From assembly GCA_012269745.1 (NCBI GenBank), contig JAAXJR010000025.1, positions 1 through 33,807 on the forward strand: 33,807 nt of DNA, given 5' to 3'. Positions 27,147-31,442 of this stretch are shown in pieces. The notes beneath the pieces were generated by a model, which was given only the letters and a program-made list of their open reading frames with translations, was not told the origin of the DNA and searched no databases. Position 1 is the first letter of the stretch, and every line of letters starts with the position of its first letter. The position numbers were made by a program, and so were the translations under genes. The stretch is from Flavobacteriales bacterium (GTDB lineage: Bacteria > Bacteroidota > Bacteroidia > Flavobacteriales > Schleiferiaceae).

Positions 27147-27926
27147 TTAAGCCGCCTCTTCTTTCGTGCTTACAGCAAGAGAGTAGATAACTAGACCAAA
27201 TCCGATTTTGTTAACTGCATCACCGATGTTGTATACAACGTCCATGTATGCAGATGCAGCAGCTGGATCAGAAACTAATTGCATTCCGAACAAACCACCT
27301 GGTGTACCCAAGATGTAACCTAATGGGTAGATTGCCCATCCTACTAATACGAACCAGAAAAGAACTTTTACTGCTTTCGCAACTGCAGGACCAGCGTTGG
27401 CTGCCAACTGTGCAACTTCTCCTTTCCACACGAGGAATACGATGTAGAAGTAAGCAGCACCAGAAAGAACACCCCACATAACTGAAGACTCACGGTAGAT
27501 AGTCTCACCGAAGTAACCAGTTACAAGCATAATTACAGACGCAGCGATAAGTTTCCATAGAAGACTCATCTTAGCACCAGCTTTCTTCGTGATCAAGTAG
27601 AACTCAACACACATTAGTGGTACTGTTAGCGTCCAGTCAACGTAACGGAAGAATGTTGGAGATTCTCCAGTTTCGAAGTGGTAGCTTCTCATGTAGTAGT
27701 AGTGTACGAACGCGATGAACGTAATCAAACCACTTACCAATAAAGAAGTACGCCATTTTTTATCTACGTTCCACATTTCGAAGAAGAAGAACACAGATGC
27801 TGCCATCATAGCCATACAGCCTACGAAGAACGTAAACGAAGTAATGGTTGTGATGTCAGTGTAGGCAGTTAAATCTACTGCCGAATTGCTAGCACTCACG
27901 CTAGCCAATAAAGTTGTCAGTGACAT
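27147..27926 (-). CDS. Proteorhodopsin, light-driven outward proton pump, green-tuned
   Basis: A 259-residue, seven-helix microbial rhodopsin. Numbering matches the reference proteorhodopsin up to helix C: His 75, Arg 94, proton acceptor Asp 97, Thr 101 and proton donor Glu 108, i.e. the DTE motif of outward proton pumps (RYVDWTLTVPLMCVEFY). Position 105, the spectral tuning site, is Met, the residue usual in Bacteroidota opsins and associated with green absorption. The retinal Schiff-base Lys is Lys 240 in GDAVNKIGFG (Lys 231 in the reference), with Asp 236 four residues before it; the 9-residue shift comes from a longer segment between helices F and G (GTPGGLFGMQLVSDPAAAS). Codon use is strongly biased. 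It is divergent from the CrtY-Blh fusion, which would supply retinal, with 212 bases between starts. It is not a DTG chloride pump or an NDQ sodium pump. Confidence 0.97.
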   Translation of the reverse strand: MSLTTLLASVSASNSAVDLTAYTDITTITSFTFFVGCMAMMAASVFFFFEMWNVDKKWRTSLLVSGLITFIAFVHYYYMRSYHFETGESPTFFRYVDWTLTVPLMCVEFYLITKKAGAKMSLLWKLIAASVIMLVTGYFGETIYRESSVMWGVLSGAAYFYIVFLVWKGEVAQLAANAGPAVAKAVKVLFWFVLVGWAIYPLGYILGTPGGLFGMQLVSDPAAASAYMDVVYNIGDAVNKIGFGLVIYSLAVSTKEEAA

Positions 27927-28007
27927 GGTGTATAAAAATTAAAGGTTATAACTACCACTTAACTGCCCTACTGTAATTTTGTTCATGCTTGTTTAAAAAT
28001 AAGTGTA

Positions 28008-28037
28008 AAAACCTAAACATCTACTGTAAATCAGCAA
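28008..28037 (-). promoter_or_regulatory. Candidate proteorhodopsin promoter
   Basis: On the minus strand TTG (28037-28035) and TAGGTTTT (28015-28008) are separated by 19 bases, matching the Bacteroidota consensus except for the last base of the -7 box. The leader would be about 75 bases. The rest of the AT-rich 27927-28138 gap should also hold the promoter of the divergent crtY-blh gene; the best plus-strand -7 match is TAATTTTG at 27974-27981, but no -33 element fits it. Confidence 0.4.
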
Positions 28038-28138
28038 TTTGCATGCATGTTTAATACAATTAAACTCTTTTGGGGAAAACAAAAGTTCTGTAAAATGGTT
28101 TTTAAAATAAAAGGTCTAGTAGACATTTAATAGAAATC

Positions 28139-30109
28139 ATGTTCAGTTTCGGTTTAATTGGTTTGGGTGCTGCAAATTCACTGCTTCTTCTTCGGATGGA
28201 GAAGGCAGGAGTTCTTGATGGTGCTGCAGGAATAATCTTCGATCCGAATTTTAAAGCCACTAACGATAAGACGTATTGCTTTTGGGCGAATCCCGATGAT
28301 GAGATCGTTCATGATTTAAAGGCGAGTATAGGGCACAGTTGGTCTCATGTCGTAGCTGGGGATAACCTTCAAAGGTTCTCTTCCATGAAGTATTACATGG
28401 TCGAGAGCATTACTCTTTACAACAAAACGAGAGAACTTTTGGAGCGCCATCCCAATTTGAAACGGTCTGCCGAGCAGGTAATGGATGTTGTGGATTACTC
28501 TGTATATATAGATGTTATGACAGAACTGGGGTCGTATCAAGTATTAAAAGTATATGACAGTCGTCCTCCTCAAATTAACGAAGTCATAGGCAAGACGGTT
28601 TGGCAAAGCTTTGAAGGATGGAAGGTCAGATTCGATGAACCTACCTTTGAGGAGCGTACCATGAGGTTGATGGATTTTAATATCCCACAAAACGGCTTCA
28701 CCCAGTTTATGTATGTTCTCCCTACAAGTACTACGGAGGCCTTGATTGAAGTGACGCGCTTTGGGCAGGAGATGCTTTCAGAAGAATTGGCTAAAGATTT
28801 ATTGCGCAATTATCTGTTGACTTACAACGCATCATATTCAATCCGTGAAGTGGAGCAGGGGGTTATTCCCATGTCGCAAAATGCTGAGCAATTTCACAGC
28901 AGCCCCAAAGTTATTTCGACAGGTGCACGCGCTGGGAAATTAAAATCAACGACGGGATATGCCTTCAAGGCGATGTATGACCATGCGAAAGAATTGGTTG
29001 CGAATGAAAGTTTAAATAAGAATACAAATCCGTGGTTTGGTATGCCTTCACGTGGCGGTGGCCGATTCGCCTTTTATGACTTCCTTCTTCTATTCATTCT
29101 TAAGTTCCGACCGCACTGGGGCAAGAGCATCTTTACAAGGTTGTTTGCCATTAAACCAAGCGAGGAAGTATTCACCTTTTTAGATCAAAGAAGTACCCCT
29201 GGCTGGGAACTAGGCATGTTTACCAGGCTGAATAAGCGCAAATTTATCTGGAGTCTAATTTTCTCTTCTTTCGCATTTATGTTATCCAAGCCGCAGCGGT
29301 GGGTTCCGGTGGTATTTTCAATTTTTGCATTGGGGATCAATCGTTTTGCGCCCGGTTATGGAACTAGCTTAGGCTTAGGTGTACTGATTTTCTTGTTGTT
29401 CGCAGTTGGTATTCCTCACGGCGCATTGGATGGATTTTCCCATTCGAGAAAGCTGAATTTACCCGCGTTCATTGCGCGCTATTTGGGGATCATGGCTATG
29501 GTTGTTTTACTCTGGCTAATAAGTCCAGTTGCTGGATTAATCTTTTTTCTCATCTACAGTGCGTGGCATTTTGGTGAAACCGATTTAGTCGAATGGCAGC
29601 GCGCCAACATAGGATTGTCAATGCTGTGGGGAACCCTGTTGCTGGGGATCATCTTGTTATCACATCTCCCTGAGGTCAATACCCTCATGGGTTATATGAA
29701 AATTCCCGAGTGGCCTATTTCTGAAGTTCTGGCTCCTTCGTTGGTGCAATTGTTTTTCTTTTTAGGCGCTATGATGGCTTTGTGGTTCCGTTCAGCGGCT
29801 TGGGGCCTATCGTTAGTTGCATTGGCTTTGGGTACCCAGTTGCCCTTGGCATTGAGCTTTGGTATTTACTTTGTTCTTCAGCACAGTTTGACCGGCTGGA
29901 GTCACTTGAAAACTAATGAGAATTGGACGCACAGTGGGATGTTCGTACGAGCATTGCCCTTCACCGCTGGAGCAGTAATCATTTTTTTGGTACTGTTTCA
30001 GTTCGACCGTTCTTCGCTGTGGCAGTGGTCGAGCTATTTCCTCATATTCCTGAGTGCACTCAGCTTACCGCACATCTATTTTATGTCGCGGCTCTACAAG
30101 GATATTTAA
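28139..30109 (+). CDS. Fusion protein: CrtY-type lycopene beta-cyclase + Blh-type beta-carotene 15,15'-dioxygenase
   Basis: One uninterrupted 656-residue frame with two enzyme halves. Residues 1 to about 380 are a complete CrtY-type lycopene cyclase: the dinucleotide motif GLGAANSLLLL at 8-18 (compare GGGLANGL in other CrtY), TNDKTYCFWANP at 41-52, EERTMRLMDF at 171-180, FMYVLPTSTTEALIEVT at 190-206 (Glu 204 aligns with the catalytic Glu of this class), EQGVIPM at 239-245 and STTGYAFKAM at 270-279, then the usual CrtY C-terminal region to about 375. Residues of about 385-656 are a membrane-embedded Brp/Blh dioxygenase: GIPHGALDGF at 424-433, WHFGETD at 476-482, QHSLTGWSHL at 581-590 and SLPHIYF at 642-648, with candidate iron-ligand His 427, 477, 582 and 645. 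Together they would turn lycopene into beta-carotene and then retinal for the divergent opsin. An in-frame stop at 28103 with no ATG after it fixes the start. Confidence 0.94.
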   Translation: MFSFGLIGLGAANSLLLLRMEKAGVLDGAAGIIFDPNFKATNDKTYCFWANPDDEIVHDLKASIGHSWSHVVAGDNLQRFSSMKYYMVESITLYNKTRELLERHPNLKRSAEQVMDVVDYSVYIDVMTELGSYQVLKVYDSRPPQINEVIGKTVWQSFEGWKVRFDEPTFEERTMRLMDFNIPQNGFTQFMYVLPTSTTEALIEVTRFGQEMLSEELAKDLLRNYLLTYNASYSIREVEQGVIPMSQNAEQFHSSPKVISTGARAGKLKSTTGYAFKAMYDHAKELVANESLNKNTNPWFGMPSRGGGRFAFYDFLLLFILKFRPHWGKSIFTRLFAIKPSEEVFTFLDQRSTPGWELGMFTRLNKRKFIWSLIFSSFAFMLSKPQRWVPVVFSIFALGINRFAPGYGTSLGLGVLIFLLFAVGIPHGALDGFSHSRKLNLPAFIARYLGIMAMVVLLWLISPVAGLIFFLIYSAWHFGETDLVEWQRANIGLSMLWGTLLLGIILLSHLPEVNTLMGYMKIPEWPISEVLAPSLVQLFFFLGAMMALWFRSAAWGLSLVALALGTQLPLALSFGIYFVLQHSLTGWSHLKTNENWTHSGMFVRALPFTAGAVIIFLVLFQFDRSSLWQWSSYFLIFLSALSLPHIYFMSRLYKDI

Positions 30110-31329
30110 GCCAATTTCTTACGCAGGGTAATGTGTGTGATTTCTGGCCACATACCTACGCGTCCTGGGAAAGCTAAGAATCCGAATCCTCTGTTTACGT
30201 GCAAAACCTGACCGTCAGCTTCAGGATACAACCCAGCCCATTTTGGGTATTTGAATTTCACCGGCGACCATTTGATCCATCCAGGGATCTCAATACCAAA
30301 CTGCATCCCATGTGTATGACCACTTAGGGTGAGGTGTACTTTCTTATCGTGCTGCTTCACCTCTGCATCAAAGTGCGAAGGGTCGTGGCTCAATAGCACA
30401 GTGAAGGCATCTTTCGGAATACCATTTAGTGCCTGCTGCAAATCACCGTATTGCGGGAATGGGGGCAGACCCCAATTCTCTACACCAGCTAGATAAAGGC
30501 GCTGGCCGTTGCGCTCGAAGAATCGACTCTCGTTAAGGAGGAGGTCCATGCCCATCTCGGCATGAATTTCCTTAAGTCTATTTAGGTTTTCCACCTTGGC
30601 CTGCGCAGAGGGGAAGCGCCAATAATCACCATAGTCGTGGTTTCCTAGGATGGAGAACACGCCGCTTTTTCCCGTTAATTTCTTAAAGGTGTCTATCCAC
30701 GGTTCTGCTTCGGTGGCCACGTTGTTGACCATATCTCCGGTGAACATCACGGCGTCGGCGCCTAGTTCATTGACCATCTGAACACCGTATTCCACCTTTT
30801 CCTTGTTGTCGAAGGAGCCACTGTGAATGTCAGAGATTTGCGCAATGGTAAAGCCGTCAAATTCATCCGGCAAGTCCTCAAATTCCAAGGTATGGCTAAT
30901 GACGCGATAGCGGTAGCGCCCTTTCCAAATGCCGTCGATGATGCCAATAAATGGGATAGCTGCGAGGCCCAGTGCAATCTGAGAGATGAAGGTTCGGCGC
31001 CCGGGTAGGGTGATAGGCTGGGTGGTGGCGGCACGGAAAAGGAATTGGCCCAAACGGGTGATGTCCTCTATCAATAATGGAATGATGGCGACCAGTTTTG
31101 GAACGGCCAACAAGATGCTCGCGCCCATGAGAACGCCGAGGTATTTATAATCTACTTTACCGCTGCTCATCAGCACGGAAATGCTAACGCTTAGGATGAT
31201 GTAGGCTAAGGTGATGCCCCAATAAATCCAGGGTGTGGCGGTAGAACGGAAGACGGTTTTGAAAGCTTGATAGGCGTAGAGGTCTATGGCAAGTACAAAT
31301 CCCAGGGTAAAGAGGATTCTAAAGATCAT
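30106..31329 (-). CDS. Membrane-anchored metallophosphoesterase, YkuE/YaeI-like
   Basis: A 407-residue protein from the ATG at 31329, where MIFRILFTLGFVLAIDLYAY begins the first membrane helix; the frame is open to 31440, with ATGs at 31362 and 31440 as alternatives. Several membrane helices fill the first 120 residues, then IALGLAAIPFIGIIDG, followed by the calcineurin-like domain: SDIHSG, FTGDMVNN, GNHDYGDY, LLSHDPSHF and SGHTHGMQF supply the metal ligands in the usual order. Relatives of this layout (YkuE, LpxG-like UDP-2,3-diacylglucosamine hydrolases) act at the membrane on lipid or nucleotide diphosphates; the substrate here is not known. Its 3' end overlaps the end of the crtY-blh gene by four bases in a convergent arrangement. 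Confidence 0.88.
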   Translation of the reverse strand: MIFRILFTLGFVLAIDLYAYQAFKTVFRSTATPWIYWGITLAYIILSVSISVLMSSGKVDYKYLGVLMGASILLAVPKLVAIIPLLIEDITRLGQFLFRAATTQPITLPGRRTFISQIALGLAAIPFIGIIDGIWKGRYRYRVISHTLEFEDLPDEFDGFTIAQISDIHSGSFDNKEKVEYGVQMVNELGADAVMFTGDMVNNVATEAEPWIDTFKKLTGKSGVFSILGNHDYGDYWRFPSAQAKVENLNRLKEIHAEMGMDLLLNESRFFERNGQRLYLAGVENWGLPPFPQYGDLQQALNGIPKDAFTVLLSHDPSHFDAEVKQHDKKVHLTLSGHTHGMQFGIEIPGWIKWSPVKFKYPKWAGLYPEADGQVLHVNRGFGFLAFPGRVGMWPEITHITLRKKLA

Positions 31330-31442
31330 AATATCTGAATGTATACTGAGTATCAACGCCATAACAAGCGTATTGTTTTCCGAGGACAAAACTCGGTATT
31401 TAAGTGGGAAGTAGCTAACTTCCGATTTCAATATTTCCACTT

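Follow-up and report, generated by a model that had tools for sequence, protein, structure and literature searches.

A CrtY-Blh fusion protein widespread in Bacteroidota, a candidate lycopene-to-retinal enzyme set aside for rhodopsin

The stretch of DNA that we analysed (hereafter the window; 33,807 nucleotides from a Flavobacteriales bacterium) encodes, divergently from a proteorhodopsin gene, a CrtY-type lycopene cyclase and a Brp/Blh-type carotene dioxygenase that are fused in one polypeptide. This observation had been made from the letters of the window alone; it was right, and it is more general than the original prediction could know. A search for relatives gathered 111 distinct complete fusion proteins from Bacteroidota, a set that excludes L027, L135, L220, L221, L330 and L339, which are truncated or split. 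The architecture, its conservation, its linkage to rhodopsin and the presence of a second cyclase could be demonstrated at the sequence level, and from these we infer both enzyme activities and a split of the pathway. Very probably, the protein is a bifunctional, membrane-bound enzyme that leads from lycopene to retinal and is reserved for the rhodopsin branch.

Table 1. Features of the fusion locus, with positions in the window.
Feature	Position	Strand	Basis
Proteorhodopsin, 259 aa, divergent from the fusion	27147..27926	-	PF01036, 146 bits
Spacer separating the rhodopsin gene from the divergent fusion gene, 212 nt	27927..28138	.	gene coordinates
crtY-blh fusion gene, 656 aa	28139..30109	+	open from ATG 28139 to TAA 30109, stop-free
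CrtY half, residues 1-375, FAD-dependent lycopene beta-cyclase type	28139..29263	+	PF05834 match
Blh half, residues 385-656, membrane-embedded	29291..30106	+	PF15461 and TIGR03753 matches
Junction, residues 366-403	29234..29347	+	model pLDDT 87-96; profile-match spacing
Glu204 in ALIEVTRF, candidate catalytic acid of the cyclase	28748..28750	+	invariant in 68/68 aligned fusions

The unbroken frame that had been predicted held up in domain searches. Pfam profile PF05834 (Lycopene_cycl) matched residues 7-355 with 120.3 bits against a cut-off of 23.4, covering positions 5-361 of 380 in the profile, and PF15461 (BCD) matched residues 419-652 with 90.1 bits against a cut-off of 28. The NCBIfam profile for Brp/Blh, TIGR03753, scored 116.2 bits, above its cut-off of 95.25. 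Both Pfam profiles also exceeded their cut-offs in all six additional fusions scanned. The CrtY half stayed under the NCBIfam cut-offs of TIGR01790 (77.2 of 209.5 bits) and TIGR01789 (48.3 of 215.2 bits), which were also missed by 6/6 stand-alone Bacteroidota CrtY proteins and by 2/2 other fusions scanned. PF18916, the profile of CrtYc/d-type cyclases, was not found in the fusion, whose cyclase half belongs to PF05834; the PF18916 protein of this genome is encoded on another contig. When the source genome was searched with the fusion as query, the only match was the frame itself. The proteorhodopsin that had been predicted beside it was likewise recovered (Table 1) and shows, as read by eye, what we take to be the D-T-E pattern of a proton pump, and the spacer between the two genes presumably carries the promoters of both. 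Downstream, a metallophosphoesterase gene (30106-31440, minus strand) is convergent with the fusion and overlaps its stop codon by 4 nt; a similar frame occupies this position in congener loci.

Structure prediction, which the original prediction had named as a check, yielded a confident and continuous AlphaFold2 model of the full fusion (pLDDT 88.6, pTM 0.79), with a poorly predicted stretch at residues 295-306. At the junction, the last helix of the CrtY half (366-383) turns straight into the first helix of the Blh half (385-403). The fold of the CrtY half was nearest to geranylgeranyl reductases (3oz2: rmsd 4.2 over 348 aligned residues, Z 23.2). Modelled alone, the Blh half reached a pLDDT of 93.3 and a pTM of 0.90 and had no match in the PDB at E <= 0.001, which is no proof of a new fold; a sequence search of solved structures returned four weak matches, with neither a cyclase nor a dioxygenase among them.

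His427, 477, 582 and 645 of the Blh half were present in 86, 86, 86 and 85 of 86 fusions, respectively, and each was found in all 40 stand-alone Blh proteins compared. Two more were much more frequent in the fusions: His509 (86/86 fusions vs. 12/40 stand-alone Blh) and His589 (81/86 vs. 3/40). The Blh domain had been called complete, a description that stands for the first four His and fails for the HxxxH pair, whose second His is absent from the source protein (position 586 is Gly). Fusions show QHSxxGWxH or similar in place of HxxxH, a motif found in only part of the stand-alone Blh proteins; one of the two nearest of these has GWxH, the other GWxD. In the CrtY half, Glu204, presumed catalytic as in other CrtY enzymes, is invariant, as is much of the neighbouring core, in the 68 aligned fusions (68 of 86 distinct fusions entered this alignment, and 62 of 88 rows the Blh alignment). 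Across CrtY, junction and Blh, dN/dS was 0.02-0.08 in six genome pairs, with dS high to saturated, and by these comparisons both halves and the junction are under purifying selection.

Among 24 genomes of the same genus, the fusion was complete in 22, contig ends cutting the remaining two. Both domains shared one frame in 78/78 loci of named public assemblies, which came from the best 80 of 281 stretches encoding relatives, overlap partly with the same-genus genomes and include two frames that reach a contig end. All but one of these loci (77/78) are titled Bacteroidota, and the titles include Schleiferiaceae, Cryomorphaceae, Crocinitomicaceae, Chitinophagaceae and Saprospiraceae. One MAG is titled Streptomyces griseus (L075), yet its fusion groups amid those of Bacteroidota, and the label looks wrong. 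In surveys of 395 genomes each, which counted full-length open-frame matches, complete fusions were found in 23 genomes of the order, 33 of the class and 5 of the phylum; the source genome is in each survey and the samples overlap. Occurrence in the genus, order, class, phylum and public assemblies ruled out that the fusion is unique to the source genome. Viral carriage was rejected, a search of viral_contigs having returned no relative. At one locus (L330 1057-3167; G1041, contig C30), CrtY (403 aa) and Blh (a frame of 360 aa) are encoded in two frames that overlap, which may reflect either an erroneous frameshift or a gene that split recently; the same-genus relatives are fused. Considering that the source genome is a draft of 87 contigs, one might suspect that two genes were joined here through an error of assembly or sequencing. 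A single-contig genome (G073) carries the same frame, however, and the congeners and public loci ruled this reading out with near certainty: an architecture that is unbroken in relatives is neither chance nor an assembly join.

A rhodopsin gene lies within 600 nt of 55 of the 90 distinct fusions, and for the remaining 35 none was found in the flanking stretch examined. In 22/90 it is upstream, on the opposite strand and within the same distance. At the level of genomes, rhodopsin was present in 56/61 fusion-bearing genomes vs. 15/35 fusion-free family mates (Fisher p 3e-7, with kinship uncorrected; the genomes are related, so that the cases behind this and similar associations are not independent). 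These counts treat G346 and G772, one genome entered twice, as one (57/62 as entered), and five of the 62 entered had no rhodopsin that we could find. In another genome (G046), two rhodopsin genes flank the fusion (L212 7764-11864, contig C37), and remnants of a second CrtY with an internal stop lie beyond the second rhodopsin (81045-81663 of C37); from its sequence, this locus looks like a duplicated rhodopsin-fusion unit minus one enzyme copy.

The source genome also encodes a cyclase of the CrtYcd type (PF18916, TIGR03462) on contig C75, directly adjoining a gene for a CrtZ-like hydroxylase. CrtYcd was found in 59 of 79 distinct fusion-bearing genomes, the source genome included (60/80 as entered, before the genome entered twice was merged), and in 8/8 clusters examined its neighbour is a CrtZ-like gene. 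CrtD and CruF are encoded near it in four clusters (G017, G013, G073 and G046) and CruF in a fifth (G440). Within the family of the source genome, Schleiferiaceae, CrtYcd occurred in 28/31 fusion genomes vs. 4/13 fusion-free genomes with CrtY (Fisher p 2e-4, kinship uncorrected). The four fusion-free carriers (G029, G044, G052 and G381) have an adjacent crtY-blh pair; CrtYcd was not found in G030, G032 and G060, which have crtY and blh without a fusion, nor in G025, G037, G038, G051, G059 and G302, in which no adjacent blh was seen. With CrtYcd present in most fusion genomes, and next to a CrtZ-like hydroxylase in the clusters examined, the fusion has the look of a cyclase set aside for retinal and distinct from the pigment branch.

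The CrtZ-like protein (L288 8255-8728, 157 aa) has four His boxes, whose pattern we take to be that of CrtZ, and is 44% identical to a PF04116 member; it had no match in Pfam or NCBIfam, and surveys using these collections may miss the CrtZ-like protein beside CrtYcd. A PF04116 search of the source genome returned two matches, one a PF04116 protein of 354 aa and the other a CarF-like lipid desaturase, and the conclusion drawn from it, that this genome has no CrtZ, was overturned by the protein on C75. Other carotenoid genes of the source genome encode, on contig C13, CrtB together with a desaturase of the CrtI type (732 bits, cut-off 640) and, on contig C5, CrtD and a CruF-like hydratase. On C13 (L255 4786-9152), the genes for this desaturase and for CrtB, with one for a NUDIX (idi-like) protein, adjoin an ECF sigma factor gene and also a gene for a CarH-like, B12-binding MerR regulator, an arrangement from which light control of these genes is possible. 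The CarF-like lipid desaturase (PF10520; L254 9986-10606) is encoded near crtD-cruF on C5, and likewise in L289 (G017) and L290 (G013). In G073, a rhodopsin gene heads a crtD-cruF-crtZ-crtYcd cluster (L292 9431-13555), ~1.3 Mb away from the fusion; a rhodopsin beside xanthophyll-type genes perhaps indicates a carotenoid antenna.

CrtYcd was not found in 20 of the 80 fusion genomes entered. In three f37 fusion genomes, neither CrtYcd nor a second CrtY was found and a CrtZ-sized PF04116 protein is present; for one of them, G681, the check for a second CrtY scored 3 of 7 first-look candidates. For the other 17, the absence concerns CrtYcd and, in most of them, says nothing on a second CrtY. Six fusion genomes of the class survey have a separate CrtY (G1126, G886, G891, G1001, G877 and G1108, the last with a fusion that a contig end truncates). 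The separate CrtY of four of these six entered the last CrtY tree, from which the stand-alone CrtY proteins L329 and L338 were dropped by identity thinning, and clustered there with CrtY of flavobacteria rather than with the fusions. The simplest reading of these gene contents is a division of labour, with CrtYcd or a second CrtY serving pigments and the fusion serving retinal; the three f37 genomes misfit this split.

In the pathway that we propose, the N-terminal CrtY half would cyclise both ends of lycopene to give beta-carotene, in an FAD-dependent reaction at the cytosolic face, and the C-terminal Blh half, as an iron-dependent membrane dioxygenase, would cleave beta-carotene at the 15,15' position into two retinals. 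These retinals would then load the neighbouring proteorhodopsin, and general carotenoid pigments would be made apart, via the unrelated CrtYcd beside the CrtZ-like hydroxylase. The fusion would set the two enzymes at a 1:1 ratio and keep the cyclase at the membrane, by the cleaving enzyme, and it would probably shorten the path of beta-carotene. Since the CrtY helix runs into membrane helices in the model and the CrtZ-like hydroxylase is a possible rival for beta-carotene, a private stream to retinal makes sense. Of the original interpretation, a conserved two-enzyme fusion beside a proteorhodopsin is supported, and direct hand-over of beta-carotene and an otherwise peripheral cyclase stay conjectural. 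Channelling of beta-carotene is plausible, and true channelling between the halves is speculative. In its broadest form, the proposal would define a widespread bacterial class of lycopene-to-retinal enzymes in which beta-carotene is passed between two sites of one membrane protein, and in which two cyclases are retained so that pigment and rhodopsin chromophore avoid competing for beta-carotene; as a whole, this we hold to be tentative and rather doubtful.

It is quite possible, if somewhat short of an even chance, that the frames of two overlapping operon genes were joined neutrally, in which case both enzymes work and tethering brings co-expression only. As the original prediction had assumed, crtY and blh are separate genes in the fusion-free relatives examined. 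Where stand-alone genes form same-strand pairs, crtY comes before blh in 25/25 and overlaps it in 19/25, and the close pair of G032 overlaps by 11 nt in different frames, so that a small indel could fuse the two. A neutral join is at odds, however, with a junction under constraint equal to that of the halves (dN/dS 0.035-0.076; a seventh genome pair was saturated and gave no value), with a gap between the CrtY and Blh profile matches that is held to 15-41 residues in the 111 distinct fusions, and with a fused form that persists down to 33% identity with the source protein. The separations seen amount to the one split frame of G1041 and perhaps G032. A Met occurs near the junction in 65/87 fusions, its best-shared column reaching at most 31 of 68 aligned, and an internal start there may yield free Blh. 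As to origin, the first sampling placed the fusions in a single clade, in the CrtY tree as in the Blh tree (SH-aLRT 99 and 95; the contig-truncated fusion L027 was left out of one of the two). In the enlarged sampling, the fusions of G877 and G1001 grouped with stand-alone genes of Schleiferiaceae family mates in both trees, which weakened a strict single origin; a one-clade constraint was not rejected for CrtY (p-AU 0.39) and was marginally rejected for Blh (p-AU 0.036). The trees, whose rows were thinned by identity, are compatible with one origin and a later split in the G032 line, or with two fusion events.

An unlikely alternative, that the cyclase half works for pigments as well as retinal by also providing mono- or bicyclic carotenoids, would accommodate the three f37 genomes, which have a fusion and CrtZ-sized PF04116 proteins and in which no other cyclase was found, and it gains from the ability of CrtD and CruF-like enzymes to accept half-cyclised products as substrates. 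It is countered by the second cyclase of most distinct fusion genomes and by the CrtZ-like neighbour of that cyclase in every cluster examined. That one half is inactive and serves as a scaffold or membrane anchor might be suspected from the missing second His of HxxxH and from the low NCBIfam scores of the CrtY half. We consider this highly improbable: purifying selection on CrtY and Blh is similar, the family-wide His and the CrtY core residues are kept, and the GWxH form is already present in a stand-alone Blh among the two nearest.

Rhodopsin phototrophy needs retinal, and the fusion bears on how carotenoid precursors are divided between pigments and retinal. If a natural one-protein lycopene-to-retinal enzyme does operate alongside a pigment cyclase, this division would become testable in E. 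coli, and retinoid engineering would gain a ready-made part if the lycopene-to-retinal activity is true. Genome surveys in which blh or crtY is tallied as a gene of its own may misinterpret fusion-bearing organisms.

The architecture had been thought undescribed. For bacteria this agrees with the open-access literature, in which we found no CrtY-Blh fusion, most subscription papers and all preprints lying outside the search; none was found in passages of PMC10284914, PMC5877348, PMC5459899, PMC9227343, PMC10016063 and PMC9239080, and a term search of PMC4110020 gave nothing. For life at large, the claim has to yield to a protist protein with a cyclase of another family, described below. A bacterial retinal-pathway fusion adjoining proteorhodopsin is known from Verrucomicrobiota, whose CrtIB joins phytoene desaturase and synthase, which catalyse earlier steps, whereas crtY and blh are listed as separate (PMC10284914). 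The separate crtY/blh pairs of the family mates G029, G032, G044, G052, G060 and G381 share homologous domains, gene order and presumed pathway with the fusion, but encode two polypeptides from adjacent, overlapping genes. The Blh of the uncultured marine bacterium 66A03 is a stand-alone protein in which mutants of His188 and His192 retained <5% activity (PMC9227343); these two His are four residues apart, whereas the source fusion has Gly at the second place, His192 being mapped to position 586 by spacing alone. The closest precedent is the four-domain CrtI-CrtB-CrtYc/d-Blh protein of the protist Thecamonas trahens, whose Blh domain is placed by its describers next to a cluster that spans several bacterial phyla as well as haloarchaea, as its sister (PMC10016063). 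It likewise holds a lycopene cyclase and a C-terminal Blh in one polypeptide that is thought to serve retinal formation, but it is eukaryotic, has four domains and uses a CrtYc/d cyclase rather than the CrtY of PF05834 (PMC10016063).
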